Positions 17,781 through 42,763 are shown, counted from the stretch's first letter. The stretch: DNA of 64,000 nucleotides from Rhodovastum atsumiense (GCF_937425535.1 NZ_OW485601.1:5129501-5193500), one strand, 5' to 3'. The notes: generated by a model from the letters alone, not told the origin. Numbers and translations: made by a program.

Positions 17781-17806
17781 TCTCTACGCTAAGCTACAGA
17801 CATTAT
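17781..17806 (-). promoter_or_regulatory. CRISPR leader (very short)
   Basis: Only 26 AT-rich bases separate the leader-end repeat from the cas2 stop codon. Type I-E leaders normally span 60 bases or more and carry an IHF site, so the functional leader must extend into the 3' end of cas2, which is unusually long here. I see no convincing IHF consensus by eye. Confidence 0.55.
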
Positions 17807-18139
17807 TTACTTTGTCAATGAGCCAAGGTTGTCGTTGGGTGGGGCATTTTCGCGTTTTGCGAGTAGAAGGCCTTGATAGTCTCGCAGGTCCCGCGGCGGA
17901 AGCCCCAGACTCAGCAAACCCTGCCGACCGGGCGCTTTTGGGTCGCGCCATGTCATCACCGCACTGCCCTGTCGCATCTCACTGTGCCAGTCGCTCAGTA
18001 CGTGCCATACCCGATCCCGAACGCCGTTGGTCATCGTTGGCGACGTGTATACGCCGGGGGCGATCTCGAGCATGACCGATGCCAAGAAACCTCTGAATCG
18101 ATCCGGTACATCACGCGTTACGATCAGCGTCATCGGCAT
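17807..18139 (-). CDS. cas2: CRISPR-associated protein Cas2, type I-E
   Basis: A 110-residue Cas2 of the CasE-linked type: TLIVTRDVPDRFRGFLAS at the N terminus, then MLEIAPGVYTSP and VWHVLSDWH, closely following the E. coli layout (about 94 residues). It dimerises between Cas1 dimers in the spacer-integration complex. The C-terminal tail (NAPPNDNLGSLTK) is longer than usual and its coding sequence probably overlaps the CRISPR leader. The start lies inside the end of cas1 (29-base overlap), showing tight coupling. Confidence 0.93.
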   Translation of the reverse strand: MPMTLIVTRDVPDRFRGFLASVMLEIAPGVYTSPTMTNGVRDRVWHVLSDWHSEMRQGSAVMTWRDPKAPGRQGLLSLGLPPRDLRDYQGLLLAKRENAPPNDNLGSLTK

Positions 18140-21740: not shown

Positions 21741-22336
21741 GGTGCGATGCCTTCCGGGAGATCAGTTGCGGTGTCGGGTTCAGAGCCGCCTTTGCCGAAG
21801 GGGCGGAAATAATCGCGGGCGATCCTGCGAGCGGCGTTGTCGGCATCCAGGCGACCGGCCATGCGACCGAACACCAGCGGGGCGGTCTGCACCCAGTCGA
21901 AAGGACGGCGATGGCTGGCGCACCAGCGGGTCGCCGCCGCAAACTCGTAGGCGAACGCATCTGGCCGGTCGGCGCGCAACAGGCGCAGCAGGCGCGGCTC
22001 GCTGTAGCCGCCGCCTTCCCGCGGGCCGCGCAGCGCGGTCCCCAATCCGGTGCCACGCTCGTGGATGAGCGGGGCCATTTCGGCCATCCCGGCGAGCAGG
22101 ACCGCCCATGCGTTTTCGGCGCCACGTCCTTCTGTCCAGCCAGCGAAGTCGGGACGGGTGATGAAACTCCAGAACACGCCGGGCCACGGTCCCTGCCGCG
22201 GGCTCATCCGTCGCAACATGGCGATCGCGCCACGATCGAACAGGCCGGCCCGTTCCTGGAACGCGTGCACGCCGGCCATGATGACCTCGTCGGGGCGTGG
22301 TGCCGTGGGGGAGGATGTGGGGGATGGAGCGCTCAT
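21737..22336 (-). CDS. cse2: Cascade small subunit Cse2 (Cas11)
   Basis: A 199-residue helical protein matching Cse2/CasB: FWSFITRPDF, a RGTGLGTALRG segment and RLLRLLRAD. Two copies stabilise the R-loop in Cascade. Its ATG 22336 overlaps the cse1 stop by 4 bases. The length is normal for the family (160-200). Confidence 0.92.
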   Translation of the reverse strand: MSAPSPTSSPTAPRPDEVIMAGVHAFQERAGLFDRGAIAMLRRMSPRQGPWPGVFWSFITRPDFAGWTEGRGAENAWAVLLAGMAEMAPLIHERGTGLGTALRGPREGGGYSEPRLLRLLRADRPDAFAYEFAAATRWCASHRRPFDWVQTAPLVFGRMAGRLDADNAARRIARDYFRPFGKGGSEPDTATDLPEGIAP

Positions 22337-24115: not shown

Positions 24116-26749
24116 TCAAGCGGCCTCGGCCAGACGTAAGCCAAGGCGATCATAGACGAATTCCCGCCCGGCGAACCGGAAGTGAAGCTTATCGGGCTCG
24201 GGACGGATCGCCTCCGGGGCGGGATCGGCGGCCGGGGCGATCCCCTCGACCATCCAGGCCGGCACCGGCAGGGTTTGGATCGTCGTGCCGAATGGCCCCG
24301 GTTGGGGCGTCTCAAACCGCGCGACCCGCCGGCCGAGCCCGAGCCGGGTGGCCAGGGCGGCATCGAGTTCGGGTAGCGGTGCAAGGGCTTTCTTCCATGC
24401 AAGCCAGGCCGCCTTCGCGTGGGTGATCTGGGCTATTTGGGCGCCAGTGTTGATTTCGTTCACATGGCGGACCCAGGCTGGGCCCAGCTGGAGCGCCAAT
24501 GTTTTGAGCGCTTCCGGATGGGTGGTGCGCTCGACCAGGTCGCGATTCATGTGGGGGATTCGCCAGATCGGATTGGCTACCAGCGCCAGCCGGGTCGCGG
24601 CGAGGATGGAGAGATCAGGATAGACCTTCCCAAACCCCAGAGGGGCATGGCTTGCCGTACCATTCGGCGATGGCGCGATCGCCTCGATCGGTGGTGCCAG
24701 AACAATCGCGCACGGTGTCGCAAAACCCGCCGGGCGGTCGGGACGGCGATGCCGGTGCAACCGCCCGAAGCGCTGCAACAGCACGTCGCACGGGCAAAGG
24801 TCGGTGATCAGCAGATCCGCATCGATGTCGAGGGACTGCTCCGCCGTCTGGGTCGAGACGGCGATGATGCCGCCACTCTGCGCATCTCTGCCGAACCTGG
24901 CTTCGAGTTCGGCGTCGAGCAGAAACCTGTCCTCCACCGCGAAGCGGGCGTGATGCGGTGCGGGCCGACCGTTGGGACTGAACAGGCAGTCGCTGGGAAC
25001 CAGGGTTTCCAGGGCGCTCTGTGTCGCCTGCGCCAGCCTGACCAGATTGCGGATGACGAGCACGCGGGCGCCCCGGCTGGCGGCATCGGCCGCAAGGGCG
25101 GCCGCATGCCCGGGGCTGGCATCGGCGTCGAGCATGACCGTCACGGCCTTGCCGGCGGCTTCGTCCGGTGGCGGCGCGCCGCAGATCAGGCCCTGGGAGC
25201 CCAACAGCGCCGGATAAGGCACCTCGCGCGCGGTCGCGAGGGTGGGCGGATCACGGAGGGTATTGTGAAGCAAACGATGGCGTGCGGCGGCGCCAAGCGT
25301 GGCTGACATCAGGAAGGTATGGCCGCCTGCCGCCCGATGCTGATCGAGGACGTTGAGCAAGAGCGTTGACATGTAGGCGTCCGAGGCATGCACCTCGTCG
25401 ATCACCAGCAATTGCCGCAGCATGGGGCCCGAGCGCAGCGGCGCGTGCCGCACCCGCATCCCACCGAGAAGGAGTTGGTCGATCGTGCCGACCATGACCG
25501 CGCCGGTGAGATAGCGTTTCGGCGTTTCTACCGCCCAGCCGCGATCGTGCCTCGTATCGGCGGGATCGTCCGGCCACAGGACCGACCAGTCGACTTGGGC
25601 CTGCCCGTCCCGGTCGTCGACACGAAGATACCCGGGCACGGCCAGACCGACCGGGGGGGCCGCCGCTCCGAGCCAGTCGCGCAGCTTCTTCGTGACCCGC
25701 TGCTGCATCGCCACCGCGGAGGCCCGTGTAGGCAGGGCAAAAAACAACCCGTCCACCGCGCGCGCCGCCAGCAACCGCAGGAAGTGGATGAGCGCGGCCT
25801 CGGTCTTGCCGGAGCCCGTTTCCGCCTCCAGGACGCGCACTTCGCCAGGCTCGGGCAAAGGCGCCGAAAGGATCTGCTGCTGAGCCCAGTGCGGCGTGAA
25901 ACCCGGCAGCAGGCGGGCGAACGAAGCGAGGTCGGGTGCCTGTGCCGCCTTCTGCCGTGGGGCCGGCATGATAAACCGGCGCTCCAGCAGCGCCCGCGCC
26001 TGAGCACGTGCCCAGTCGAGTCGCGAGGTGCCACCGTCTTCGCACCAGGGATCGCCGGCAGGGCCGAAAACCGTGCTATCCGAGCCCAACCAATCAGCCC
26101 AGGTCACAATCCCCGCGAATGCGTGCAGGAAACGCGGCGGCAGGATCGTCGGCGAATCAGGCCCGAAAGCGTGCGGAAACCAGAGCGGCAGCGCATCACC
26201 GAGGCGGCGCGCGGCCGTGATCGGATCATAAGTGCCAAGGGGTTCCCAGAGGGTAAGGTCGGCCTCGCCAGTGGCAGGAAGCGCACCGTGATGCGCGAGG
26301 ACCGCGCAGAGCGCCTGGTCCGGGTCAGGAAACCAGTTCACGACATCGTTGAGCCGCAGCGCCGTGATCAGTGCGGTGCGTATTCCGCGCCGCTGTTGCT
26401 CGCTGCCGCGCGAGAGAGGGTGGAACAATAGGTCCATGATTGGACGAACATGCCCCGCGGTCGGGCCGGGCAGAGAGCGAATGCGGTTACGGAAACCAAC
26501 ATTCACTTTCCCTGCGTCATGCAATGCGACCAGGACGCACAGTCGGGCAATCAGGGAAGGCGATATGGGCCCACCAAAGCCCGCCAGATGCCCAAGCCGC
26601 ATCGAGATTGTGGGCAAGGAAAGCAGAGCCTCGGTGACGGCCGCCACGTCGGCAGCATGCGCGTTCAAGGAGAGCAGCATGATCTCGGGGGCAGAACCGA
26701 GGGTCTTGGCGACGGCATCTGCCGGATGCTCAAGGAGGACCATGTGCAC
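24116..26749 (-). CDS. cas3: CRISPR-associated helicase-nuclease Cas3
   Basis: An 877-residue type I-E Cas3 that Cascade recruits to unwind and degrade targets. The N-terminal HD nuclease shows His77-Asp78 (LHDAGK), His100, His153-His154 (AHHGALP) and Asp219 (WADWLG). The helicase has Walker A at 309-316 (AETGSGKT), DEVH at 451-454, SAT at 482-484, and the motif V/VI segments TAEQSLDIDADL and QRFGRLHRHRR. All key residues are present. The reading begins at GTG 26749 or ATG 26743. It is separated from Cascade by about 190 bp holding a mini-array and a hairpin, so it may be expressed from its own promoter. Confidence 0.96.
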   Translation of the reverse strand: MHMVLLEHPADAVAKTLGSAPEIMLLSLNAHAADVAAVTEALLSLPTISMRLGHLAGFGGPISPSLIARLCVLVALHDAGKVNVGFRNRIRSLPGPTAGHVRPIMDLLFHPLSRGSEQQRRGIRTALITALRLNDVVNWFPDPDQALCAVLAHHGALPATGEADLTLWEPLGTYDPITAARRLGDALPLWFPHAFGPDSPTILPPRFLHAFAGIVTWADWLGSDSTVFGPAGDPWCEDGGTSRLDWARAQARALLERRFIMPAPRQKAAQAPDLASFARLLPGFTPHWAQQQILSAPLPEPGEVRVLEAETGSGKTEAALIHFLRLLAARAVDGLFFALPTRASAVAMQQRVTKKLRDWLGAAAPPVGLAVPGYLRVDDRDGQAQVDWSVLWPDDPADTRHDRGWAVETPKRYLTGAVMVGTIDQLLLGGMRVRHAPLRSGPMLRQLLVIDEVHASDAYMSTLLLNVLDQHRAAGGHTFLMSATLGAAARHRLLHNTLRDPPTLATAREVPYPALLGSQGLICGAPPPDEAAGKAVTVMLDADASPGHAAALAADAASRGARVLVIRNLVRLAQATQSALETLVPSDCLFSPNGRPAPHHARFAVEDRFLLDAELEARFGRDAQSGGIIAVSTQTAEQSLDIDADLLITDLCPCDVLLQRFGRLHRHRRPDRPAGFATPCAIVLAPPIEAIAPSPNGTASHAPLGFGKVYPDLSILAATRLALVANPIWRIPHMNRDLVERTTHPEALKTLALQLGPAWVRHVNEINTGAQIAQITHAKAAWLAWKKALAPLPELDAALATRLGLGRRVARFETPQPGPFGTTIQTLPVPAWMVEGIAPAADPAPEAIRPEPDKLHFRFAGREFVYDRLGLRLAEAA

Positions 26750-27361: not shown

Positions 27362-27365
27362 CCGT

Positions 27366-27561: not shown

Positions 27562-29106
27562 TCAGAGTTTGAACGGAGCGCCCTGATCAAGCATGTCGCG
27601 GTCGAACTCCGTCTGGTTGCTCCAGCTTAGCTTGGCGCCGAAAGCGCCGTTGATTTGCTCCAGCGCGGCCAGAAGCTGGGGATTATCAGTCGTGCGCAGT
27701 GCAGCGCTCAGATCGGTGAAAGCGGTGGCGAACAGTGCCTCGCGATCAAGGTAGTGCTGCTCGATCAGCATGGCGAGCGCTTCCCGATTCGCCATCAGCC
27801 GGGGCAGGGCCTCCCGGCAGGTGGCCTCGATCTGCTCACGTCGCCGCTTGGCAGCACGCGCGGCCTCCAAGTGTGTCACTATCCCATAAAGGAGTGCATC
27901 GATTCCCTGATTGACGGCGACCGCTGCCACCGCGCCGAGGACGGCGGCCAGAAGCCCGGCCAGGATGTCGCCGATGCCGAACGGTAAGGCTGCGAACTGC
28001 GCCTGCAGTTGGGCTTCCAGTGCGACGCTCAGGGTGGCAATCCCGAGTGTCGCGAGCACTTTGAGGACAATAGCGACCAGCCGGCCGAAGCTTGGGACGC
28101 TTCCCGTGAAATATCCCCAAATGGCGTCCCAAATCTGCTGCGCCAGGGCGCCGACGGTCTTGAGCAGATTGGCGGCGCTTTTCACGAGGCCGGCGAGTAC
28201 TGCGGTGCTGGCCTCGAAAGCTAACTGCCCCAGCCCACCAAGCGAGTGCTGCGCCAACGCCACATTCAGGCGGTCCCAGGTGGCCGCAAAGAGGCGCTGC
28301 ACGCGTGCCAGGGCCGGCGGACCGCCAGCACCATGAAAGGCGTCCTGCATCTCCCAGATCGCGCCGCTGACGACGAAGGCCGCGGTGTCCAGCACGGCGT
28401 TCTTGACTGTTCCTTCGCTGACACGCACGGCAGCATGTTCGGCAGTGCCCATGACGGACTGGGTCACAGGGTGCTCGGCGGCCCAAGAGGTGTGCTGGCC
28501 CTGGATGAGCTTGCCGAGGGCAATGCGTGCCTTTTCAGCTTTCGGCCCACCCCGGGCTACTATTTCCTTTAGCGTCTGCTTATGGCGATCATAATGATCG
28601 TGGGGCACGACGATCTGGCTGACACTATCCTGAAGATATCTTTCCTCCAGAAGCGCAGCGGTTTTGTCGACAACCTTGAGCTGCTGGGCTTCGATGACTC
28701 GATTTTTTCGGACTATGACGTTGTCGACTGAGGTGTGGTTGCGTACTGCGTAAGATGCCAATCCTGCAGGGAGATCACCCACCTGTTGGCGTTTGGCAAG
28801 CTCATCGGTGGTGAAGGCACGCGTATTTCGGCCATTAATTTCGCTATCAAGGTTGACCGCCGTTTTCTCCAGCACCTCAAACATATGGCCTTTGATGTTC
28901 GGGTTGCGGTTTGGGCTGCCGTCATCGTTGCACGAGACTTCCTGTATCGCCACGAAGCGGTCGAAATGTGCGGCATACAGATTTGGACCCGGCATCAGCG
29001 TGACTGCGCTGCCGAACCGACGCGAGAGACGTCGGCGCACTTCGGCCTGCAACTCGGTGATGACATCGTCGAGCAAGGAGGGAACTGGCGTCCCGGGAGG
29101 CGTCAT
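27562..29106 (-). CDS. Large protein of the three-gene operon: possible nuclease N-half plus hydrophobic C-half
   Basis: About 514 residues from ATG 29106 (MTPPGTPVPS). This start avoids a 13-bp hairpin (29125-29153) that an upstream start at 29163 would include. Residues about 60-150 contain NIKGHMFEVLEKTAVNLDSE, then TSVDNVIVRKNRVIEAQQLK. The D...ExQxxK spacing is reminiscent of PD-(D/E)XK-like nucleases, but this is inference. Residues about 260-420 are rich in hydrophobic helices (GLVKSAANLLKTVGALAQQI, AIVLKVLATLGIATLSVAL, GIGDILAGLLAAVLGAVAAV), suggesting membrane insertion. It is third in an operon with a glycine-zipper protein and a TerB-like protein. I do not recognise the family; an anti-phage or toxin effector is plausible. 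Confidence 0.6.
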   Translation of the reverse strand: MTPPGTPVPSLLDDVITELQAEVRRRLSRRFGSAVTLMPGPNLYAAHFDRFVAIQEVSCNDDGSPNRNPNIKGHMFEVLEKTAVNLDSEINGRNTRAFTTDELAKRQQVGDLPAGLASYAVRNHTSVDNVIVRKNRVIEAQQLKVVDKTAALLEERYLQDSVSQIVVPHDHYDRHKQTLKEIVARGGPKAEKARIALGKLIQGQHTSWAAEHPVTQSVMGTAEHAAVRVSEGTVKNAVLDTAAFVVSGAIWEMQDAFHGAGGPPALARVQRLFAATWDRLNVALAQHSLGGLGQLAFEASTAVLAGLVKSAANLLKTVGALAQQIWDAIWGYFTGSVPSFGRLVAIVLKVLATLGIATLSVALEAQLQAQFAALPFGIGDILAGLLAAVLGAVAAVAVNQGIDALLYGIVTHLEAARAAKRRREQIEATCREALPRLMANREALAMLIEQHYLDREALFATAFTDLSAALRTTDNPQLLAALEQINGAFGAKLSWSNQTEFDRDMLDQGAPFKL

Positions 29107-29124
29107 GGGATATCCGATGCGGCG

Positions 29125-29153
29125 GCGCCAGGGTGTGCGGCACACCCTGGCGC
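29125..29153 (-). promoter_or_regulatory. 13-bp hairpin inside the three-gene operon
   Basis: GCGCCAGGGTGTG (29125-29137) and its exact reverse complement (29141-29153) leave a 3-base loop in the 53-bp gap between the second and third genes. There is no T-run. It could lower expression of the third gene or be an mRNA processing site. Confidence 0.55.
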
Positions 29154-29159
29154 GGGGGG

Positions 29160-30164
29160 TCACATGCTGGCCAGCTTGGCCACGAAGTCGCGTGCTTCCT
29201 GCACGGCCCGCCGCGACTCGCGGGTGACCGCACCATCGGCGTCGAACAGCGGCGCTTCCAGCACGTTCTTGACGGTCTTCGCCAGGGCCGCACAGCGCAT
29301 CACCAACTGCCGCTCAGCGGCGTCATAGGTGGCGTAGTCGGTCGCCTCAGCGACCAGCGCACGCAGGTCGACGAGAGCCGGCATGAAGCAATCCTCGAGC
29401 TTCTCCAGCACGTCGGCCATCTCCTCGGCGCGGCGCTGGATGGTACGGGCTGCGACCTCGGCGGTCTTCATCTCCTCCACGGCCGCCGCAGCCTTCGCCA
29501 GGTTTGCCTGGGCGTCCTCGACGGCCTTCGCCGCCTTGGAGGCCATCACCATGCCGCCGACGGCCAGCACGGGGCCCGCGACAATTCCTCCGAGCACCGC
29601 CGCACCGCCGGCCATACCCATACCGCCAGCCGCCAAGCTGCCGCCACCGAACCAGGCCAGGGTGGCGTTGGTCGCGGCAGCACCCGCGAGGCCGCTGATC
29701 GCGGCACCTGTAGAGGCCGTGGCAAGAGCGCCAACGCCGCCGAACGCCGCCAGCCCCGCCAGAGCCCCGCTGCCCAATGCAGCCGCGCCGCCTTGCAGCA
29801 CGTCGACCATGCGGAGCGCGATCTCCTGCACCTCAAGCATGTCGGCAGCGTTGACGGCGAGCCGCAATCCCGAGGCGATATTGGGATCATGAAAATCAAT
29901 ATTTTTGATTTTCTGAAAGTAATCGACGAACGGGATGAGTCCGCGCTCGTACAAGAAGGCTTTTTCCTTGCCGAGTGACTCAAGTCGTTGCTGAACAATC
30001 CGGCGAACAGCTTCCAGTTCCTCTCGTCCTTCCTCAAAAGTGCTCTGGGCTTCGGTAGTAATGCTTTTCGCGCGGGAGAAGTCGGCTTTTGCATCAAAGC
30101 CTTTCTTGACGCCCCATCCACCGGCAGCGATGGCAACGGCACCCAAAATCAGGGGAAGTGGCAC
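29160..30164 (-). CDS. Glycine-zipper membrane protein of the three-gene operon
   Basis: 334 residues. An N-terminal hydrophobic segment (LILGAVAIAAGGWGVKKGFD) is followed by a coiled-coil-like stretch (about 25-95, EEGREELEAVRRIVQQRL) and the motif FVDYFQKIKNIDF. A long Gly/Ala-rich core (about 125-215) includes TNATLAWFGGGSLAAGGMGM, then comes a helical tail. From memory the core resembles a widespread family of unnamed bacterial proteins. Gly-zippers pack membrane helices and occur in pore-formers and toxin carriers. It starts two bases after the upstream gene stops. Its role is unknown, but it is a candidate membrane effector or scaffold. Confidence 0.65.
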   Translation of the reverse strand: MPLPLILGAVAIAAGGWGVKKGFDAKADFSRAKSITTEAQSTFEEGREELEAVRRIVQQRLESLGKEKAFLYERGLIPFVDYFQKIKNIDFHDPNIASGLRLAVNAADMLEVQEIALRMVDVLQGGAAALGSGALAGLAAFGGVGALATASTGAAISGLAGAAATNATLAWFGGGSLAAGGMGMAGGAAVLGGIVAGPVLAVGGMVMASKAAKAVEDAQANLAKAAAAVEEMKTAEVAARTIQRRAEEMADVLEKLEDCFMPALVDLRALVAEATDYATYDAAERQLVMRCAALAKTVKNVLEAPLFDADGAVTRESRRAVQEARDFVAKLASM

Positions 30165-30166
30165 GG

Positions 30167-30940
30167 TCAGTCCTCCAGGAAAGTCTCGGCTTCACGCAGC
30201 AAATGCAGTTGTCGAACAACCCAGGACGTCATGTCGTCCACATCCTCCGGGGGGATGGAAAAAGCAGCGGCAAGGTTGGTGATAAAAGCGGCTTCGCTGG
30301 CGTGGTAGTCCCCGTCTATGTGCGCGAGTGCCAATAGTTCGAGAAAAGCCGAGACGCGAGCGCGACGTGTATTAAATATTGTGGCAACTTCGCTCATCGT
30401 GCAGGCACGCGGCGTAACTACGGTGCCTATTTCGCTAATAAAACCTTCAAGGCGGCTGCTTTCGGCCACATCAACGCGGGCGTCTGCGGCCACAAGGCTT
30501 TGCGCGAGATGCAGGAAAACAGCCTGCTGATCGGGTTGCAGATTGGACAGGAACATACCAGCCAAGTCTTTCGTAATGCGCAAGCCCCGCGGCTTGCAGG
30601 TGGAAGTGGATGGGGGGGAATGCCCGGTGGCCAGCATCTGCCGAAGCACGGCACACGCGGCGTGGACCCGTTCGTGGTACTGCCGAAGATCAATCCGATC
30701 AGCGTATAAGCGTTGGTACATCAAATCGATACGGCATTCATCTGGGCGCGTTGCGTAGATCGCGCAGCTCGTCAGATCGGTATCAAGATGAACACAGGTT
30801 CCGTCCCCCCGGTCGAGGTGACGATACCAGGGATGTCCGTTCAGACTGCGACAGCATGCTCCACAGCGTTCACATTGAAACCGCGGCTCATCGGGCGCCC
30901 GCTGAATGTCTACAGAAGGGGCACATCCTGAACGTGACAC
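30167..30940 (-). CDS. YkgJ-type cysteine-cluster domain fused to a TerB-like domain
   Basis: 257 residues starting at GTG 30940. The N-terminal half has CERCGACC plus later single cysteines (GTCVHL, TSCAIY, DECRID), the CxxCxxCC cluster of YkgJ (UPF0153) metal-binding proteins. The C-terminal half (about 150-255) is an all-helical, acidic TerB-like domain: VFLHLAQSLVAADARVDVAE and FLELLALAHIDGDYHASE. TerB domains occur in phage-defence and stress systems, often coupled to membrane partners. It is the first gene of a minus-strand operon with the glycine-zipper protein 2 bp downstream. A sensor role is plausible but not shown. Confidence 0.65.
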   Translation of the reverse strand: MSRSGCAPSVDIQRAPDEPRFQCERCGACCRSLNGHPWYRHLDRGDGTCVHLDTDLTSCAIYATRPDECRIDLMYQRLYADRIDLRQYHERVHAACAVLRQMLATGHSPPSTSTCKPRGLRITKDLAGMFLSNLQPDQQAVFLHLAQSLVAADARVDVAESSRLEGFISEIGTVVTPRACTMSEVATIFNTRRARVSAFLELLALAHIDGDYHASEAAFITNLAAAFSIPPEDVDDMTSWVVRQLHLLREAETFLED

Positions 30941-33296: not shown

Positions 33297-33542
33297 TCAG
33301 CCGTCGGCAGTGGATGTGCGCACGCAGCAGGCCACATAGGCTTCGAGGTCGCGGACGCGATAGCGGACGGTCTTCCGGCCTAGCCGGACGAAGGGCGGCC
33401 CGCCCCCGCTGCACCGCCACCGCTCCAACGCCTTCCGCCTGACCCCCAGCCACGCCGCCGCGCCCGCGGTCGTGAGGAGGCCACCCGCCGAGGGCTCAGA
33501 GTATCCCGCCTGCAGCAGGGAGTCCGCAGTAACGTTCCTCAT
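33297..33542 (-). CDS. Excisionase / AlpA-like MerR-type DNA-binding protein
   Basis: 81 residues. LLTTAGAAAWLGVRRKALER is a helix-turn-helix, followed by a wing (GPPFVRLGRKTVRYR) and DLEAYV, the layout of AlpA/Xis proteins that bend att DNA and set recombination direction. ATG 33542 overlaps the integrase stop by four bases, so integrase and excisionase are cotranslated. This is the last gene of a minus-strand operon that begins with two small genes and a DNA polymerase. Confidence 0.82.
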   Translation of the reverse strand: MRNVTADSLLQAGYSEPSAGGLLTTAGAAAWLGVRRKALERWRCSGGGPPFVRLGRKTVRYRVRDLEAYVACCVRTSTADG

Positions 33543-34738
33543 CGATCCGCCCCCGCTGTCGGCCCGGCGAGGGCATCGCCGGCGCCTGTCGCGACCCGCC
33601 CGACCATGTTGGCGGCCTCCACCAGCGTCTGCGGGCTCAGGTGGGCGTATCGGGCGGTGGTGGCGAGCTGGGTGTGGCCGAGGACGCGGCTCACGTCGTA
33701 CAGCGACCGGCCGCCGTTGATCAGGATGCTGGCGAAGGTGTGGCGCAGGTCGTGCAGCCGCGTGCCCGCGGGCAGGGCGGCGGCGCGGCGGGCCCGCGCC
33801 CAGGCCGAGCGCACGCTCTGCATGGGGCGCCCGGGCCGGCGGGGGGACGGAAACAGCCACTCCTGGCCCGGCGCGCGCGGCAGCGTCTCCAGCAGCCGAA
33901 GGGCAGCGTCGCTGAGCGGGATGTGCCGCCGCCGGCCACTCTTGGACCGCGGCACCGTCAGCAGGCGCCGCTCCACATCCACGTCTGCCCAGCGCGCGCG
34001 CAGCACCTCGCTGCGGCGCGCGCCGGTCAGCGCCAGGAGCGCGATCGCCCGGCCCGCGAGCGGATCGGGGTCCTCGCCGAGCGCCGCCATCAGCGCCGCC
34101 ACCTGCGCCTCCGCCAGGTAGCTCTCGCGGGGCTCCTCGCGCAGCATGCCCGGGTGCTGGGCGGGGTTGGCGCCCTGGTAGAGCCCCCAGCGCAGGGCGA
34201 GGCTGAACATGCGCCGCAGCACAGCCAGGTGCCGGTTCACCGAGGCGTTCGACAGCCCCTCGTCGATCAGGCCGCGGCGGAACGCAGCGATGTGAGCGGG
34301 CGTCACCTCATCGAGCGCCTTCCGCCCGAGCGCGGGGGCGATGCGCAGGCGGATCGCGGCCTCGTAGTTGGCGTGCGAGCGCAGGTGCTCGCGCGCGTGG
34401 GGGATGAACATGTCGGCCGCGTAAGCGGCGACGGTCGGTATCGCCGCCAGTCGGTCGCGGGTCCCAGCGGGGTCGCCGCCCAGGCTGATGGCAGCCCGCT
34501 TTTCCTGGGCCTTCTTGCGAGCCTGGTCGGCCGTGATGTCCCCGTAGCGGCCGAGCCTCAGCTCCCGGCGCCGGTGGCGTGGGTCGGTGTACCGGAGCCA
34601 GAAAGTCTTGCGGCCCGAGGGGCAGACTTCGATCGCGAAGCCCGGGATGGCAAGGTCATACACCCGGTACTTCCGCTCTCCCGGCGCGACGGCCAGGAGG
34701 TTCTTGATGTAGGCGGTGGTGAGGGCGGCCTTCGCCAT
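33539..34738 (-). CDS. Tyrosine recombinase of the polymerase-bearing element
   Basis: 399 residues from ATG 34738 (MAKAALTTAY); an upstream extension to 34930 lacks support. An N-terminal arm-binding domain and core-binding domain precede a catalytic domain with Arg241 (TGARRSEV), Lys267 (RSKSGR), His329 and Arg332 (LHDLRHTF), His355 (LGHTQ) and Tyr364 (TARYAHL). It is clearly homologous to, but distinct from, the integrase at 11196. It sits between a family-B DNA polymerase and an excisionase on the same strand, making a replication-integration module. No att core for it was found by eye. Confidence 0.92.
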   Translation of the reverse strand: MAKAALTTAYIKNLLAVAPGERKYRVYDLAIPGFAIEVCPSGRKTFWLRYTDPRHRRRELRLGRYGDITADQARKKAQEKRAAISLGGDPAGTRDRLAAIPTVAAYAADMFIPHAREHLRSHANYEAAIRLRIAPALGRKALDEVTPAHIAAFRRGLIDEGLSNASVNRHLAVLRRMFSLALRWGLYQGANPAQHPGMLREEPRESYLAEAQVAALMAALGEDPDPLAGRAIALLALTGARRSEVLRARWADVDVERRLLTVPRSKSGRRRHIPLSDAALRLLETLPRAPGQEWLFPSPRRPGRPMQSVRSAWARARRAAALPAGTRLHDLRHTFASILINGGRSLYDVSRVLGHTQLATTARYAHLSPQTLVEAANMVGRVATGAGDALAGPTAGADR

Positions 34739-34827
34739 CCCGGGGCAACTCCTCTTGTGGGTCGTTACGTGGAAGGCTGCTGCCGCGCCCGTACTGGGCG
34801 CGGCGAAGAAATAGGGCTGAATGGACG

Positions 34828-37800
34828 TCACGACGTCTCTTGGGTGCCGGGTTCCCCGAGGGCGATGCCTTCGGGATCGAGGGCGGCGTCGATGACCGGT
34901 CCGCGGGCAGGCACGAACGCCAGCTGCCATTCAAAGGTGGGAAAGTGCGCGAGGATCGCCTTGAGCAGGGCCCGTGTCTCCGGCACCCACGGCACGCAGT
35001 GAGCGAGGAGAGGGGCAGACCGGCGCCCTGCGTAGGTGATGTCCTCTTTTCCGGTAGGGAAGCCGGCTTCCGAGAGGAGCCTCGCGACTGCCGCGAGGCC
35101 GCGTTTCTGGAATCGGATGCCCCACAGACCCTGGCGGCCGGCCTGCAGGAATACCCGCTTCAGGATGCCCCAGGCATTGTCTTGCCGCACCTGGAGCGTC
35201 CGGACGCCGGCGGCCTCGCAGGCCCGCTTCAGCGCCCAGGAAGCCTCGAAATACGCCTCCCAGTCACGGTAGTCGTCCATCGTCCGGAAGACGCGCTGTC
35301 GATCGCGGCTCCAGCCGTCCACCCGCACGCGGGCGAATTCGGCTTGCTCGACGCTTTCCCAGGCATCGGTGTCCCAGGCGATGCGGTCCTTGCGGCGGCC
35401 GAGCCGCACCATGCGTGGCCGCACGGGGCGCCGCTTGAAGTCGTAGCGCAGGTTGAGGGTCCGCGTCCGCTCGATGCCGTGCAGGTCCGCCTCGCGCGTC
35501 AGCTGCTCGCGGGCGGATATCAGCTGCTCGTGGACCACGGTCATGCCGGGGCGCAGACCAAGGTAGAGTCGCAGCATGAAGCGGTTCTCGGCGGACGGAT
35601 CGGAGCGGGTCGGCGGCTTGACGCTGCCCTTGGCGCAGACCGGCTCGAAGCCATCGGCCTTGAGCGCGGTGAAGGTCGTCCGGACCGCCACGGAGATCAG
35701 CTGGCGCGCGCCGTGCTTGGGCGTCGGATCCAGCACCTCACGCGCGCCGAAAAGCCGCTCGCGCAGATCGGCAAAGTAAGCACAGACGGGGCCATCCAGG
35801 CTGAGCTGGTCGAGCGGTACGTTGACGAGCAGACCGTCCGTGGTGGCGGTGAGCACGGTTCCCCACGAGGGCACGCCGGCCAGGATCTCGCCGAGCACCG
35901 CGCGGATGAAGCTGGTCGCCCACGCTGCCATGAACGGCTCGGTGAGTGCCGAGGGCTCGAGCGGTTGCCCGCGCATCGTCTTGGGATCGAAGACGCGCTT
36001 GTCCCTCAGACCCTGCGCTAGGAGGCCGTAGGCGGAGTTGCCGATCTCCTTCCAGAGTTCGTTGGTGGCGCGGTGCCGGTCCTTCGGAAACTCCCGCCGC
36101 CTCGTTTGCACGAGGCGCGTGAACTTCTCGAAGATCCGCTCTTCGGATTTCCAAGGTGCCTTGAATCCCTGGACGATGGTGACCTTCGCCCCCATTCGCA
36201 CGGCAAGGAATATCTCGGGGGAGCAAACGAAGACGCGGTCCTCCTTGTGGCCTACCCGGGGAAAGACGAGGGCCTCCGACGGGGTCCGGACGGGAATGCA
36301 GGGGAACCGCGTGCCTAGCGGGAACTCGAAGGTAATCCAGGCGAAGCCCATGTCGCCAATCCCGTAGGCAGCGGGATCAAACTCCGGGCGTATGTTGTCG
36401 TAGTCGATCGGGCGCAGCGCCGTGAGCGCCGTCGTGTAAGCGGCCGGCAGGTCGAAGTCGTACCAGGGGCAGATATCGCTCGGCCCATGGTAGAAGCACT
36501 CATTGCGGCCGCCGTGATAGCAATTCCGGGCGAACTCGTAGTAGATCGATTGACCCGGGGACGGAATCGGCTTGTGTGACTGGAGCTTGCGGTACGTGCG
36601 CTTTGCCTCGTTGAAGTAGGTGCGAGGCTCGAAGACGCGGCCGACCTGGGCTGCCAGGGGCGCGCTTCCGCCGGCAAGGTTGCGCACCAACGCAGCGGCG
36701 CAGGCGGCGAGCGTCGTGGGGAGCTCTCTGAGCCCGAGCTGGTCGCGGGCGAACGCCTGCATCCTGAGCCCGTGGGCCAGGGCAATCTCGCTGTCGCGGA
36801 AGGCGTATGCGTCGAAGGCCTCGCGGAAGTCGCGCTTGACGAGATCCATGCGCTCCTTGCCGTAGCGGGCGGGCAGGCCGCGGCCCACGCATTCGGGCCG
36901 CTCAGAAGCCTTGGTCCGCGGGACGCCAAGATCGTCGTGCAGGTCGAGTTTGGGCAGACCGTTCATCACGCCCACATAGGTGAGGCCTTTTTGCCCGGGC
37001 GTCAGCCTGATGGTGTCGATAAACCGCAGGCGGACCTGGAGCCGGCTGCCGTCGGGAGCTCGGAGATACAACTGTTGGGGGCGGGTCCACCCACCTTCCT
37101 GGACGGGCTCGTCGGTGACGCTGTCGGACCGCGGCCCATCGGTTCCCGGAGCGACTTCGATGAGGTGGCCGTCGGTTTTGCTGACAACCGTCTTTCCCAA
37201 CCCCCGGAACTCCCGCTTCCGTGCCCAGAAATCGAGGAAAGTGGCCAGGTCACCCCGGATGAAGTGGCCGAACACGGTGACACGATCCGGCATGGAGGGG
37301 AGCACGCCCGCCTTGATGGCGTGGCGAAGGGTCTTTTCGAAGAACTCGGCGATGGTCGGTCGGTCCTTGCGCGCCGGACCGCGGGGGACGTGCATGTAGC
37401 GGGCATAGCGCCCGCCGCACTCGACCACGGCGGTGATGCAAAGGATCTCGTTCCACCAGCCACCGCGGCCATCCGGCCAAGTGACCCATTCGGCATCGAA
37501 GCCGACGTTCGCAGGTGGTCCTGCGTAGGGGGGGGACTGCGGGGGCGGGACGCTGCCATGGTGGTGTAGCAGCGCTACTTGCTGCCGGAGTTGCTCCTTC
37601 ATTTTGGCGCGGATCTGGCGCGGCTGAAGCCCATGCGTGCCGTTGCGCGCATGGGCGGAATTCCCAGCATTTGCAAGAAGATGTTGGATATCTGCCGGGA
37701 GGCCGGCCAGGGGAGCCAGTGCCACGGTGCCAACGTCGTCCGAAATACCGTCGGCTATCGCTGGGGTGGCGGGGTCGATGTTCGCCGGCGGCTTACGGGA

Positions 37801-37839
37801 GGGCTCGCCGGGCGTCACGCCCTTAACGTGCTTGGGCAT
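34828..37839 (-). CDS. Family-B DNA polymerase of an integrative element
   Basis: 1003 residues from ATG 37839 (MPKHVKGVTP); a frame extension to 37923 is probably not used because it overlaps another small gene. Exonuclease motifs: Asp115/Glu117 in GFDAEWVT, Asp197 in GHFIRGDL, and YAFRD with Tyr345 and Asp349. Polymerase motifs: A as DFDLPAAY (Asp461/463, Tyr468), B as KEIGNSAYG (Lys597, Asn601, Tyr604), C as TTDGL with Asp668, where the usual first aspartate of DTD is Thr. This matches organellar/viral PolB, the group that includes protein-primed and primer-independent enzymes. With integrase and excisionase downstream it probably copies the element's own DNA. The exact subfamily is unsettled. 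Confidence 0.8.
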   Translation of the reverse strand: MPKHVKGVTPGEPSRKPPANIDPATPAIADGISDDVGTVALAPLAGLPADIQHLLANAGNSAHARNGTHGLQPRQIRAKMKEQLRQQVALLHHHGSVPPPQSPPYAGPPANVGFDAEWVTWPDGRGGWWNEILCITAVVECGGRYARYMHVPRGPARKDRPTIAEFFEKTLRHAIKAGVLPSMPDRVTVFGHFIRGDLATFLDFWARKREFRGLGKTVVSKTDGHLIEVAPGTDGPRSDSVTDEPVQEGGWTRPQQLYLRAPDGSRLQVRLRFIDTIRLTPGQKGLTYVGVMNGLPKLDLHDDLGVPRTKASERPECVGRGLPARYGKERMDLVKRDFREAFDAYAFRDSEIALAHGLRMQAFARDQLGLRELPTTLAACAAALVRNLAGGSAPLAAQVGRVFEPRTYFNEAKRTYRKLQSHKPIPSPGQSIYYEFARNCYHGGRNECFYHGPSDICPWYDFDLPAAYTTALTALRPIDYDNIRPEFDPAAYGIGDMGFAWITFEFPLGTRFPCIPVRTPSEALVFPRVGHKEDRVFVCSPEIFLAVRMGAKVTIVQGFKAPWKSEERIFEKFTRLVQTRRREFPKDRHRATNELWKEIGNSAYGLLAQGLRDKRVFDPKTMRGQPLEPSALTEPFMAAWATSFIRAVLGEILAGVPSWGTVLTATTDGLLVNVPLDQLSLDGPVCAYFADLRERLFGAREVLDPTPKHGARQLISVAVRTTFTALKADGFEPVCAKGSVKPPTRSDPSAENRFMLRLYLGLRPGMTVVHEQLISAREQLTREADLHGIERTRTLNLRYDFKRRPVRPRMVRLGRRKDRIAWDTDAWESVEQAEFARVRVDGWSRDRQRVFRTMDDYRDWEAYFEASWALKRACEAAGVRTLQVRQDNAWGILKRVFLQAGRQGLWGIRFQKRGLAAVARLLSEAGFPTGKEDITYAGRRSAPLLAHCVPWVPETRALLKAILAHFPTFEWQLAFVPARGPVIDAALDPEGIALGEPGTQETS

Positions 37840-38038
37840 AGTTCCAGACCTCGGATTGGAAGGGATCCGAAGCACTGATCCACTCCGTGTCAAAACCAAC
37901 ACTAGCGACAGAACTGGTCGCACCCTGTGCCTCGGTGCCGACCGGGGAGGACGAGCGGGCCATTTTCCCGCTTTCGTCCTTGGCCGGCATAGCGAAGTCT
38001 GCGGTATCCTGAGACTTGATAAGTCGTTTTTCGCTCAT
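37823..38038 (-). CDS. Small gene ending in a PolB exonuclease I-like motif
   Basis: 71 residues from ATG 38038 (MSEKRLIK), with a TTG alternative at 38047. It is polar and disordered-looking for about 45 residues, then reads SVASVGFDTEWISASDPF and soon stops at 37823, inside the first codons of the polymerase gene. The FDTEW string parallels the polymerase's own exonuclease I motif (VGFDAEW). So this may be the 5' stump of a second, deleted polymerase gene or a duplicated leader of the present one. A genuine small regulatory protein is less likely. Confidence 0.45.
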   Translation of the reverse strand: MSEKRLIKSQDTADFAMPAKDESGKMARSSSPVGTEAQGATSSVASVGFDTEWISASDPFQSEVWNYAQAR

Positions 38039-38096
38039 TTCTGCCAATTTCTTGACGACTGCTGCCGAGGCCGCGGCAGCAGTCTCGGTTCAAGGG

Positions 38097-38441
38097 TTAC
38101 TCAGCCCCGTTGGCCGGGCGCGAGTTGCGCTTGGTGGAGGGGGTTTTCTCCTGGGGAGTGCCGTAATACTCGGCAGCCCAGGTGGGGTCCGCCTCCACTG
38201 CGAGTTCCTGCCAGTTGATCTGCTGGACGGGCCGGCCGGGCCGGTGGCTCGTGAGCAACACGGTGGTCGCGTTGCGCCAGGCGAGCGCAACCTTCAAAGG
38301 GACTTGGTGGTACTCGTGGATCTGCCCCGCCACCGAGCTGAGCAGAAGGAAGCCGGCGTTGACGTCGGTTTCGAAGGCCTTGGCGCCGCCGAGGGTGGCG
38401 ATGTCGTAGACGTTGTTCTCAGGCGAGATCATGAAGCTCAT
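38097..38441 (-). CDS. Small protein heading the polymerase operon
   Basis: 114 residues starting at ATG 38441 (MSFMISPENN), with GGAG about 8 bases upstream. It is a soluble, mixed alpha/beta protein: NVYDIATLGGAKAFETDV, LALAWRNATTVLLTSH-like strands, and a basic disordered C terminus (TPSTKRNSRPAN). I do not recognise a family. By position (first in the operon before the polymerase) it could be a replication accessory such as a DNA-binding or terminal protein, but no motif shows this. Confidence 0.6.
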   Translation of the reverse strand: MSFMISPENNVYDIATLGGAKAFETDVNAGFLLLSSVAGQIHEYHQVPLKVALAWRNATTVLLTSHRPGRPVQQINWQELAVEADPTWAAEYYGTPQEKTPSTKRNSRPANGAE

Positions 38442-38644: not shown

Positions 38645-39217
38645 ATGACCCGTTCACCCCGCAACATTGACCCGCCACGTAATCAACAGGTCCGGCAGAT
38701 CCAGCTCGATGACGCGTACCGCTGGGTGCTCGCCTGCTTCGAAGAGGTGGACGAGGTCGAACCGGACATGCGCCTGGGACGCCTGCCGGGTCAGGTCGAG
38801 TTCGACGAGCCACCAGCCACCCCGGTGGCCACAGGCCCCGAGTACTCACGTAGGTTCGCGCCGGCCGCTGCCACGATGCCACAGAGGGTGGGCGGCCCTC
38901 CGCCGGTGCTCCCGCGGCCAAGGACACCGCGCGTGCCTAATGCGGGGATGCTGGAGGCAATGTTGCAAGACCGCGGGCAAGGTCAGGCGCAGACGGATGC
39001 GGAGGCCAGGGTCTGCCGCGTGCACGATTGGCTACTGCAGGTACTCCGTGCTGGGCAGATCAGTGCGACGGCCCGCGGCTGGATCCAATCTAGCAACGAT
39101 CTGCCCGCCGTGGAGTGCGGTACACCGGTGATAGTTTTGCCAAAGTGGTGGGATGCGTTGGTGCTAGACTATTTCGCAGCCAGTGCCAGCGCGCGCGACC
39201 CGCACTGGGAGATTAAG
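38645..39217 (+). pseudogene. 5' part of a gene split by the IS66 element
   Basis: 191 codons from ATG 38645 (MTRSPRNIDP) to the left target duplication. As it stands the frame runs 8 codons into the IS and stops at 39241. Joining it across the insertion (removing 39218-40667 and one 8-bp duplication) restores one continuous frame of 402 residues ending at 41311. This half is proline-rich (PQRVGGPPPVLPRPRTPR) in the middle, then has AEARVCRVHDWLLQVL and ALVLDYFAASAS. Function unknown; an N-terminal fragment may still be made. Confidence 0.7.
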
Positions 39218-40667
39218 GTAATTGCTCACCGGGTTGGCTGACGCTGGGTTCAGGCGATGGCGAACGAACCGTCGATGAGAGCGCGGACGGCGTTGAGAGC
39301 GGTGGTTCCTTTCAGGCGGGCCGTCCCGGTGACCGATCGGTAGCCGGCGTGGACCTTGGCACCCCAGGCTGAGCGGAACCCGTTGGTGACCTTGCGGAAC
39401 ACCACGGAGGGCCGGATTTCCTGCTCGCTAATGTTGTTGGTCGGCGGAACGCGCCGGTCATGCAGGAAGACGAAGAACTTGTTTCGCCAGGCTTTGATCT
39501 GCCGCTGCAATTCGCGTCCGGCCGGATGAGCGGCCGGTATGCCGAGCAGGCGATCCAGGCGCCGCTCGGCCTGGCCGGCGTAGACGGCGAGCGTGCTGTC
39601 CTTGAGGGATGGTCGACGCTTGCCGATCCGGATCGCCCAGCGCAGATGGTCGCGGATCTTCGGAGCGCACACCGTGTCGCCGCAGTCGATGGCGTATTGC
39701 ACGTCACGCAGGACGTGGGCGAGGCAGACCTGATGGGTCTGGCCCAGTTCCTGCTGCCCGGCGTAGCGATCTGAAACCCATACCTCGGGCCGGTGGCCAT
39801 CGAGCACCGCCTCGGCCACGGCGCGTCCCCGCCCTGGCGCGATCTCGTGCAGGATCGCCTGCTCGGAGACGAACACCCACTGCCAATGGGTGACGCCGTC
39901 GATGCGGGTGGTGGTCTCGTCCGAGGCGATGACGCGGGCCTGCAGCAGCTTCGCCTTGATGGCCGCGCAAGCCGTGTCGAGCTTGCCTGCCATCCGGCGG
40001 AAGGCATTGGCGATCGCCCCTTCCGAGATGGAAAGCCCGAACAGCTCCTGGCACATCCGCGACAGGCGCTCGAAGCCGACGTGGTGGCTGTGGTGCAGGT
40101 AGGCCAGCAGGGCGTGGATCCCCGGTCCGAACGGCGTGCCCGGTGGCATGCCCGCCGGCGTCGGGGCGCGATAGCGCCGGCCGCAACCGCGACACCGTCC
40201 GCCGAACACTTCGACCCGCGTCACCTGCGGGCGGACGACAGGAAGGTCGACGTGGTCGTAGCGCTCGCGGCACTGCTGCGCCGTCTCGGCCACGGCCGTT
40301 CCGCAGTGCGGGCAGGCCTCGACCAGGCAGCGTTCCGTCTGATCGGGGGTGTCCGCCAGGGGCCGCGCCGCCCCCGGTCGCGAGGGGCGGGGTTTGCGCG
40401 ACTGCTTCCGCTCCCGGTTCTTGCGCCCCGGGCCATCCTGGGACGGCGGAAGGCTGGAATTCGACGACGTCTTCCGCGGTTTGCCAACCAGCGCTTCCAA
40501 CTCGGCGATCCGCGCCGCCATGCGCTCAATCAGCGCCGCCTGCTCCAGCAGCAGTGCGTCCTTTTCAGCCTCGGTCAGCCGGATGCGAGGAGGTGTCGGC
40601 ATCCGGATTTTGATTCACATCTCAGCGCCCAGCGCAACCCCCTCCCGCCAACCCCGTGAGCAATCAC
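39218..40667 (-). mobile_element. IS66-family insertion sequence, single-ORF (ISBst12-like) type
   Basis: 1450 bp bounded by imperfect inverted repeats starting GTAATTGCTCACCGGGTTGG on the left and, reverse-complemented, GTGATTGCTCACGGGGTTGG on the right. The flanks carry an 8-bp target duplication AGATTAAG (39210-39217 and 40668-40675), the usual length for IS66. One transposase gene fills it; no tnpA or tnpB accompanies it. The intact ends and duplication indicate a fairly recent insertion. Confidence 0.92.
39250..40602 (-). CDS. IS66-family transposase
   Basis: 450 residues. A coiled-coil N terminus (EKDALLLEQAALIERMAARI) with SSNSSLPPSQD is followed by a zinc-binding CPHC...CRGCGRRYRAP region (about 97-145). 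The catalytic domain has Asp228 in ASDETTTR, Asp278 in VSDRYAGQ and Glu393 in NNISEQEIRPS, the DDE triad. The length and lack of partner genes fit the ISBst12 subgroup. Only this copy is seen in the window. Confidence 0.94.
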   Translation of the reverse strand: MPTPPRIRLTEAEKDALLLEQAALIERMAARIAELEALVGKPRKTSSNSSLPPSQDGPGRKNRERKQSRKPRPSRPGAARPLADTPDQTERCLVEACPHCGTAVAETAQQCRERYDHVDLPVVRPQVTRVEVFGGRCRGCGRRYRAPTPAGMPPGTPFGPGIHALLAYLHHSHHVGFERLSRMCQELFGLSISEGAIANAFRRMAGKLDTACAAIKAKLLQARVIASDETTTRIDGVTHWQWVFVSEQAILHEIAPGRGRAVAEAVLDGHRPEVWVSDRYAGQQELGQTHQVCLAHVLRDVQYAIDCGDTVCAPKIRDHLRWAIRIGKRRPSLKDSTLAVYAGQAERRLDRLLGIPAAHPAGRELQRQIKAWRNKFFVFLHDRRVPPTNNISEQEIRPSVVFRKVTNGFRSAWGAKVHAGYRSVTGTARLKGTTALNAVRALIDGSFAIA

Positions 40668-40675
40668 AGATTAAG

Positions 40676-41311
40676 AGCGGGATCAAGGTAAATGGATTTC
40701 TTGATCTTGAGGGGGTAATGCTCAATGAAATCCAGCTTGCTGAAAATATACAAGAATCGCTTTATGGTTCATCACAGCCAAGATTGACTTTGGCGAGTGC
40801 GCCTAGTGGGTTCGAATTTTGCGAGATTGTTTGGAAGGGGGACTCCACCCGTCTCGAACTGAAGCGTCGCCAGGCGCTCGCACGTGGAGTGCTGGCGCTT
40901 GTGGTGCTGCTTCGACATCCAGGTCGAGAGGTTCCCTATGAGCTTCTTGAGGGGCTTTTGTGGCGAGACGTAGAGACGAAGCAGCAGCCGCAGAATGAAC
41001 GTGAGCAATCTATTGCTTACAGGGAAAAAGTCCAGCCGATTTCACGCGGGGTTTTCTCATGCAAAATCTCTATTGATGAAGGTTGTAGATCACTAGATAG
41101 AATATTAACTGAAATAAAAGGCGAATACATCATTAAATTTAGAAAACACGCAGCCGAAAATGTTCAGAAAAGTATTAATCTATTAATTTTCAATATTGGT
41201 GGCGATAAAACAATTGCAAAAGCACTGGACAAGCAGATTGTCAGAGACAAGAATTATGCTTGTTTTATAGAGCCACAGATATCCAAATCTTGGGATATTC
41301 AGGTGACGTGA
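40676..41311 (+). pseudogene. 3' part of the gene split by the IS66 element
   Basis: Continues the frame of 38645 after the right target duplication: SGIKVNGFLDLEGVMLNEIQ through LARGVLALVVLLRHPGREVP to WDIQVT at a TGA ending 41311 (211 residues). The base composition is far more AT-rich than surrounding genes, especially after 41090, suggesting foreign origin. The region about 60-110 of this part (EVPYELLEGLLWRDVETK) has a winged-helix feel, but I cannot name a family. Confidence 0.65.
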
Positions 41312-41746: not shown

Positions 41747-42169
41747 TCAGCGGGGAGAATCTTGGGGCGTGATCAATGCGACGGTCGGATAATGCGTCCG
41801 GAAGCGTTGTGGGTCCCGCGTGAGCAGCGGCAGCCCGGCCACGGCGGCGTGCGCGCCGATAAAGAAGTCCGGCAGCACGCCAGTGCGCGTGCCGCCGGCG
41901 GCACGGTAGCGCTGGAACGCCTTTGCCGCCAGGAACAGGGCCGGCCGCGGTATCGGCGTCACGATCAGGCCGGCCTCATCCACCAGGGCCTCAAGATTCT
42001 CGATCCGCCCGAAGCGGACCGAGAGCTCGGCATAGACGATGTCGTTGATCAGAAGCTTCCCGCGCAGGGCGGCGGCATCTAGCTGCTGGACTGACCACCC
42101 CGCCCAGGTCGGATCGTCGGTGACAAGGTCGAGCAGGACGTTGGTGTCGATCAGCGTGCCGTCAGCCAT
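41747..42169 (-). CDS. vapC: VapC-type PIN-domain toxin, second copy
   Basis: 140 residues, nearly identical to the toxin at 8311-8718, with the same acidic residues (Asp8, Glu48, Asp101, Asp119). Differences are conservative apart from a C-terminal extension ITPQDSPR. The start overlaps the antitoxin's end by 8 bases. Two near-identical intact pairs could cross-neutralise each other and would also provide homology for recombination between island ends. Confidence 0.9.
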   Translation of the reverse strand: MADGTLIDTNVLLDLVTDDPTWAGWSVQQLDAAALRGKLLINDIVYAELSVRFGRIENLEALVDEAGLIVTPIPRPALFLAAKAFQRYRAAGGTRTGVLPDFFIGAHAAVAGLPLLTRDPQRFRTHYPTVALITPQDSPR

Positions 42170-42395
42170 CGCCGCGCGTCAGCGCCATGATCTCGTCGGT
42201 GCTCATGCCCACGCCGGCCGCACCCCGCAGGCGGGCGAAGCGGCTCGGCGGTCGGTCAACCCCGGCCTTGACCAGAACGACCCGACCGTCGGGCGCCAAC
42301 TCGAAAGCGACAGCGCTGCCCGGCCCGATCCCGAGCCTGTCCCGGACGGGTTTGGGGATGGTGACCTGGCCCTTGCGGGTGACCGTAGTGGGCAT
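42162..42395 (-). CDS. vapB: VapB/AbrB-type antitoxin, second copy
   Basis: 77 residues starting MPTTVTRKGQVTIPKP, differing from the first copy at a handful of positions (RVVLVKAGVDR instead of QVVLVKAGADR). ATG 42395 has the same GGAGG and upstream operator repeats. Intact and expected to neutralise its adjacent toxin. Confidence 0.9.
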   Translation of the reverse strand: MPTTVTRKGQVTIPKPVRDRLGIGPGSAVAFELAPDGRVVLVKAGVDRPPSRFARLRGAAGVGMSTDEIMALTRGDG

Positions 42396-42405
42396 GGCAG
42401 CCTCC

Positions 42406-42433
42406 GGTAATACCTTGTCAGGGGAGGTAATAC
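42406..42433 (-). promoter_or_regulatory. Probable VapB operator, second copy
   Basis: GTATTACC direct repeats at 42426-42433 and 42406-42413, 20 bp apart on the minus strand, as at the first vapBC pair. The spacer between them differs slightly, while the repeats themselves are conserved, which supports function. Confidence 0.5.
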
Positions 42434-42687
42434 TACGCACCCCCAATGCGCTTTGCCAGCCCCGATCCACCGATCGGAGCTCAGCCGGGAAGCCATGCGA
42501 GATGAGTGGGGCGGCGGCGTGGTCCTGTCCACCAAACTTCCCCCGCCTTTCCCCCGGGGGCATGGGGTACGCATGGGGGCGAACAGGAGGAATCGGGGGC
42601 GGGCAGGCGGGAACGACCGGTAGCAAAGTGCCTGAAACGGATCGAAAGGGTGCTATCCACCCATTCGTTACGATGGTGTTCCGAGAA

Positions 42688-42732
42688 CTACGGATCTGGG
42701 GGTTAGGGGTTCGAATCCTCTCGGGCGTGCCA
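42688..42732 (+). other. Attachment-site relic: second 3' half of tRNA-Arg(ACG)
   Basis: Same segment as 9236-9280: anticodon loop CTACGGA, T loop TTCGAAT and encoded CCA (42730-42732). One acceptor-strand base differs (CGGGCGT instead of CGGGCGC), which would weaken the acceptor stem. No 5' half is present. With the first copy it brackets 33.4 kb containing CRISPR-Cas and the polymerase element. Confidence 0.85.
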
Positions 42733-42763
42733 ATAACTTTCTGAAAGATTTGGATTTTTTCAG

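Follow-up and report, generated by a model that had tools for sequence, protein, structure and literature searches.

A predicted integrative pipolin carrying type I-E CRISPR-Cas and ParA/RHH genes at a tRNA-Arg(ACG) site in Rhodovastum atsumiense

Pipolins are defined by a single gene, that of the family-B DNA polymerase piPolB; published elements range from 10 to 40 kb in size, and members are already known from Alphaproteobacteria (PMC9710591). The pipolins of Escherichia coli encode two recombinases, one of them near an excisionase, and have att repeats in a tRNA gene, and their excision is reportedly negligible under standard growth (PMC7385651). Other pipolins are plasmids, for which Staphylococcus epidermidis and Limosilactobacillus fermentum are named hosts (PMC9710591). 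The role of piPolB has been called unclear (PMC7385651, PMC9710591). These polymerases are without the first Asp of motif C, yet are highly active (Kazlauskas et al. 2020, PMC7544198). Casposons and polintons are also integrative elements with a PolB (PMC7385651), and casposon polymerases fall in the protein-primed group (PMC7544198).

Here we analyzed a stretch of 64,000 nucleotides from the chromosome of Rhodovastum atsumiense (GCF_937425535.1, NZ_OW485601.1:5129501-5193500), referred to below as the window. The original prediction for this DNA had singled out positions 33297-38441 as an operon of small genes, PolB, integrase and excisionase that could represent an undescribed class of self-replicating integrative element. 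The genes are present in that span, which is one part of an element of about 33.5 kb (9235-42732; Table 1) whose length fits the published size range of pipolins. We read the whole as a pipolin integrated in the chromosome of a member of the Acetobacteraceae, with CRISPR-Cas and ParA/RHH genes as passengers, and give this reading a probability of roughly 0.84. The instinct that a self-replicating integrative element is present was probably right, and the element found is indeed integrative and brings its own PolB; profile, tree and motifs place it with one named precedent, the pipolins. The locus would add to these a well-bounded example in the Acetobacteraceae, placed in a tandem array at tRNA-Arg(ACG) and equipped with a ParA/RHH pair and a full type I-E CRISPR-Cas system.

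Table 1. Features of the predicted pipolin, in window coordinates.
Feature	Position	Strand	Description
attL-like repeat	9235..9280	+	46-bp 3' half of tRNA-Arg(ACG), anticodon to CCA
DUF1186 + SEC-C protein, left end	9452..10459	-	Pfam
Second tyrosine integrase int2, tRNA-proximal	11196..12389	-	397 aa; Pfam
CRISPR array	13178..17781	not assigned	76 repeats (GGTCCATCCCCGCGTGGGCGGGGGAGCC), 75 spacers, 61-bp period
cas2e	17807..18139	-	PADLOC Cas2e 3.7e-44
cas1	18111..18995	-	Pfam Cas_Cas1 1.7e-9
cas6e	18989..19825	-	Pfam CRISPR_assoc 8e-24
cas5e	19822..20562	-	Pfam Cas_Cas5d 1e-35
cas7e	20559..21740	-	Pfam 2e-95; PADLOC Cas7e
cas11/cse2	21737..22336	-	Pfam CRISPR_Cse2 3e-10
cas8e	22333..23925	-	PADLOC Cas8e 1e-118
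cas3	24116..26749	-	Pfam Cas3_HD; PADLOC Cas3e 1.6e-143
Three-gene cargo operon	27562..30940	-	ORFs of 533, 334 and 257 aa
ParA partition ATPase	32287-32961	+	GTG start behind AGGAGG; Pfam/PHROG/NCBIfam
RHH (ParG-like) partner	32958-33185	+	Overlaps parA by ATGA; weak Pfam ParG match
Excisionase / AlpA-like protein	33297-33542	-	81 aa; HTH_17
Tyrosine integrase adjoining PolB	33539-34738	-	399 aa; Arm-DNA-bind_3 + Phage_integrase (Pfam)
PolB, piPolB-type family-B DNA polymerase (predicted)	34828-37839	-	1003 aa, without stops
74-aa ORF, probably not a gene	37823-38047	-	TTG start without clear ribosome site
Conserved small gene upstream of PolB	38097-38441	-	114 aa
Gene split by IS66	38645..41311	+	Transposase 39250-40602 (-)
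PIN toxin / MazE-type antitoxin pair, right end	41747..42626	-	Pfam
attR-like repeat	42687..42732	+	45/46 of the same tRNA-Arg(ACG) 3' half

Alignment with known PolBs bears out the exonuclease motifs (D115/E117, D197, Y345/D349) and polymerase motifs A (DFDLPAAY), B (KEIGNSAYG) and C (A-T-T-D-G) that had been claimed for the polymerase; as regards the TPR1/TPR2 subdomains of the protein-primed type expected in a piPolB fold, motifs A and B and motifs B and C are spaced by 138 and 67 residues, as against 138/71 in phi29, with T4 (153/59) close too. The polymerase family appears divergent, since Pfam matched DNA_pol_B_2 alone, at 24.1 bits and slightly under the 25.8-bit cut-off, and a phmmer search of PDB sequences gave no match. 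There was likewise no match in NCBIfam, one insignificant match in PHROGs and one weak match in an annotated phage set, and viral contigs searched with this PolB and with an E. coli piPolB query held no relative. An AlphaFold model made from a two-row alignment had a pLDDT of 30.

By its sequence the polymerase is a piPolB, the hallmark of pipolins, based on the following: 1) a profile built from four named pipolin polymerases (two from E. coli, pSE-12228-03 and pLME300) matches it with 353 bits (9.9e-106), one built from six protein-primed PolBs reaches 1.9e-4, and it is not among the listed matches of a T4/RB69 profile; 2) in a maximum-likelihood tree (IQ-TREE, LG+C20 PMSF) three Acetobacteraceae rows group with the E. 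coli pipolin polymerases (support 100/99), and all piPolBs form one clade (99/99) with every protein-primed and T4-type row outside, so that the polymerase falls with piPolBs and not with phage PolBs; and 3) its motifs are those of the family. The profile test imitates that of ExplorePipolin, which applies a cut-off of 1e-50 with its own larger profile (PMC9710591), and is not identical to it; branch order among the protein-primed rows of the tree is unsafe due to long branches, which leaves the piPolB grouping unaffected. In a 22-row alignment, motif C reads TDG after T, V or I in 14/14 piPolB-type rows, including the window polymerase, and D-T-D-S in phi29, PRD1, Cp-1, LCBv1, T4 and RB69; the first Asp is also missing in His1 and ABV. 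Pipolin polymerases of E. coli and Staphylococcus have T-T-D-G as well, and an HGG-R-N-E block ahead of motif A is common to the window PolB and the E. coli ones. T-T-D, which had been taken for an anomaly, is therefore the usual state in piPolBs (PMC7544198 and this alignment), and inactivity of the polymerase on its account was rejected given the high activity reported in that study.

Further pipolin traits are found around the polymerase, namely tyrosine recombinases with an excisionase (two integrases and one HTH_17 excisionase-like protein) and att-like direct repeats at a tRNA (the tRNA-Arg(ACG) 3' halves at 9235 and 42687). Initial repeat analysis had recovered the latter as a 43-bp repeat at 9233 and 42685, readable as a tRNA 3' end. 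The left copy is 46/46 identical to an intact tRNA-Arg(ACG) gene located 21 kb left of the window (G000:C1:5108220-5108296), and the distance from repeat to repeat is 33,452 bp. The element lies in tandem to a 30.5-kb island on the same tRNA-Arg(ACG) gene, and the remnant of a third island, with a DUF1186 gene and the int2 C-terminal region, occupies 42733-44456. Both repeats lie within a 2.1-kb duplicated stretch, 88% identical, and may partly stem from recombination between islands, besides integration, because their surroundings are duplicated; the DUF1186 gene has an 83% copy at 42904-43863 and the PIN toxin an 87% copy at 8314-8718, in both cases next to the opposite att repeat. Pieces of parA and int2, some of them fused together, occur at 7656-8046, 27117-27519 and 43929-44456, and also between 5.3 and 6.1 kb left of the window; they show that islands at this tRNA have recombined repeatedly. 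Members of the genus carry intact tRNA-Arg(ACG) genes as well as stray 3' fragments, which marks this gene as a hot spot, and the DNA downstream differs among them; no clean empty site was found by synteny within the genus, where the right flank is not syntenic. G+C content is no marker of the element, at 0.671 vs 0.696 in both flanks.

Homologs of the polymerase were found in 5/397 genomes of the family: R. atsumiense itself, Acidocella facilis ATCC 35904 (62% identity), a genome designated G664 (57-59%), G014, with two distant copies, and G595, with a fragment; in a second contig collection Acidocella was the sole relative. A. facilis (NZ_JHYG01000005.1) and G664 share with the window the same PolB, the integrase adjoining it, the small gene, int2 and a tRNA-Arg site. 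Gene order is ParA-RHH-integrase-PolB-small gene in Acidocella, where integrase and PolB overlap by four bases and an HTH gene lies beyond ParA, and excisionase-integrase-PolB-small gene in G664, without ParA/RHH. The gene order noted in the original prediction recurs in other genomes, with polymerase and integrase adjacent in more than one and the excisionase beside them in G664. In all three elements int2 is on the tRNA side, and that of the window is 65-72% identical to the other two. The Acidocella relative lies 8.8 kb from a tRNA-Arg(ACG), and in G664 a tRNA-Arg(CCU) fragment lies 9.6 kb past int2; a right att repeat was not found in Acidocella, whose contig stops 5.2 kb past the small gene. 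Both relatives carry type I restriction genes in their cargo and no CRISPR-Cas genes were seen in them, unlike the window.

Within the module, reading frames and Pfam matches show that the genes claimed earlier are real and intact, i.e. PolB, integrase, excisionase and the parA/RHH pair. The integrase, whose real start is at 34738 (MAKAALTT...) and whose end overlaps the excisionase-like gene by ATGA, is 53-56% identical to its counterparts in the same position in Acidocella and G664, and the excisionase-like protein has a homolog of 41% identity, likewise in the same position, in G664. The ParA and RHH genes face the genes of the PolB module; both are confirmed here, and the pair recurs in Acidocella, where homologs 46% and 58% identical, respectively, stand beside the PolB, but not in G664, and none were found beside the fetched E. 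coli, Pseudosulfitobacter, Staphylococcus, Fusobacterium or other piPolBs. Two unrecognized small genes had also been proposed as possible terminal-protein or accessory factors. One of them, 38097-38441, is conserved in the same position in Acidocella and G664 (36-43% identity) and has no match in Pfam, PHROG or NCBIfam. The other, 37823-38047, has no homolog in the relatives and is probably not a gene; its sole resemblance is that of a VGFDTEW stretch to the polymerase's own N-terminal ExoI motif, VGFDAEW. The latter frame was rejected as a terminal protein for this lack of conservation, and neither frame gives any indication of one.

If the element is a pipolin, one of its two integrases would recombine the tRNA-Arg repeats for integration and excision, int2 being the likelier candidate as the one closest to the repeats, and the excisionase would set the direction of recombination. 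The excised circle could then be copied by piPolB, which would need neither RNA primer nor terminal protein, and partitioned by ParA/RHH, while the PIN/MazE pair and CRISPR-Cas may favor retention by the host. More speculatively, and in our view doubtfully, this pipolin lineage may be a low-copy plasmid when excised, which is replicated by piPolB and segregated by ParA/RHH, defends its host with CRISPR-Cas, and switches between the tRNA-Arg site and an episomal state. Since partition serves only DNA that is free in the cell, the question of whether piPolB replicates an episome becomes testable here. It is also conceivable, if unlikely, that the pipolin is a resident that no longer moves, with a polymerase that has turned to DNA-damage tolerance or has no function left. 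An IS66 element interrupts one gene, the several integrase and parA fragments give the neighborhood a mosaic and decaying character, and doubts about both excision and the role of piPolB have been published (PMC7385651, PMC9710591). However, PolB, both integrases, the excisionase, ParA and RHH are all open, with conserved motifs, and the end repeats are still identical at 45 of 46 positions.

Another arrangement, which we judge rather improbable, would confine the pipolin to the piPolB module (~32-38.5 kb), its integrase and excisionase included, nested in a tRNA-Arg island driven by int2 to which the CRISPR-Cas and toxin-antitoxin genes would belong. Fragments of int2 type and the DUF1186 and toxin-antitoxin ends do recur in the region without a PolB, the N-terminal part of an int2 lying at -5345..-6121 and the C-terminal part at 43929-44456, and the R. 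atsumiense genome has one PolB match, the window gene itself. On the other hand, int2 accompanies the PolB module in 3/3 genomes with this polymerase while the intervening cargo differs, the two-integrase plan is also that of E. coli pipolins, and repeat analysis found no inner repeat pair enclosing the PolB module alone.

Comparison with described elements also favors an integrative pipolin. A gammaproteobacterial relative led to the E. coli pipolins, with matches in 298/5,426 complete genomes, among them strain M11 (NZ_CP010206.1), which was used for comparison (type element 3-373-03_S1_C2, piPolB UniProt P0DPS1). The M11 pipolin likewise has a piPolB with T-T-D-G in motif C, repeats of a tRNA end, defense cargo, an integrase by the tRNA gene, and a second integrase next to an HTH/Xis protein, a small gene and the piPolB. 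It differs in its site (tRNA-Leu vs tRNA-Arg here), in polymerase identity (~32%), in its cargo (type I restriction vs CRISPR-Cas here), in having no ParA/RHH, and in the small gene before piPolB, which has no similarity to that of the window. A tblastn search of plasmids with PolB recovered small plasmids of Staphylococcus and Fusobacterium, along with an interrupted gene in Pseudosulfitobacter; pSE-12228-03 and Limosilactobacillus pLME300 were reached through the Staphylococcus match. These plasmid pipolins (pSE-12228-03, pLME300 and that of Fusobacterium) share the piPolB family and a motif C of [T/V]-T-D-G, but are circular plasmids with relaxase and/or resolvase-type recombinase, and their polymerases are about 24-26% identical to that of the window. 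On the Pseudosulfitobacter plasmid NZ_CP087043.1, the PolB is split by IS66 and lies near integrase and MobC/relaxase genes, and this broken pipolin occurs on some 30 large plasmid records.

The low identity to named pipolins (~32% to E. coli), and the failure to find ParA/RHH beside the other piPolBs examined, would suit the undescribed class of element first proposed; we nevertheless regard this as very improbable, as the polymerase lies inside the piPolB clade and piPolB alone defines pipolins (PMC9710591). A casposon, which integrates by means of a Cas1 integrase (casposase), was rejected in view of the only Cas1 found, which belongs to a standard type I-E operon together with Cas2 and an array, and of the tRNA repeats at the ends and the piPolB nature of the polymerase; a polinton, marked by a retrovirus-like integrase and capsid genes, was rejected because the PolB module comes with tyrosine integrases and the scanned proteins of the element matched no capsid family. 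To our knowledge, neither casposons nor polintons rely on tyrosine integrases acting at tRNA repeats. The same scan (Pfam throughout, with PHROGs for the PolB module alone) recognized no phage structural gene. The best single Pfam match (DNA_pol_B_2) might point to a prophage or linear plasmid with a protein-primed polymerase, but this is almost certainly excluded by the T-T-D-G of motif C, the tree position, the profile scores, the single insignificant and single weak matches in phage collections and the lack of recognized phage structural genes.

The most conspicuous cargo of the predicted pipolin is a complete type I-E CRISPR-Cas system between int2 and the polymerase module. Defense cargo on pipolins agrees with the later literature. 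No convincing protospacer for its spacers was found in phage records or the fetched loci. With numbering from 0 at the low-coordinate end of the array, spacer 10 is the exact reverse complement of spacer 52 over 33 bases. The three-gene operon beyond cas3 has weak Pfam matches only, CxxCxxCC and TerB, both in its third gene, and is possibly an undescribed cargo system. Toward the right end, both halves of the gene split by IS66 match one intact protein of G664 (L018:14537-15979). A 95% copy of this IS66 element is located ~39.6 kb further right, beyond the window.

Among the more distant relatives, contig G014:C45 is 4,714 bp long, and its main genes encode a piPolB (880 aa) and a Mob_Pre relaxase (408 aa). 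It is probably a circle of about 4.6 kb, because its ends overlap exactly over 111 bp; comparison with annotated plasmids gave no match. This molecule would be a minimal piPolB plasmid in the Acetobacteraceae and a simpler object in which to test the question of a piPolB episome, and its apparent circularity would speak in favor of an episomal role for the piPolB family. A second contig of the same genome, G014:C33 (9463 bp), carries a different piPolB, along with MobC and a MobA/VirD2-like relaxase.
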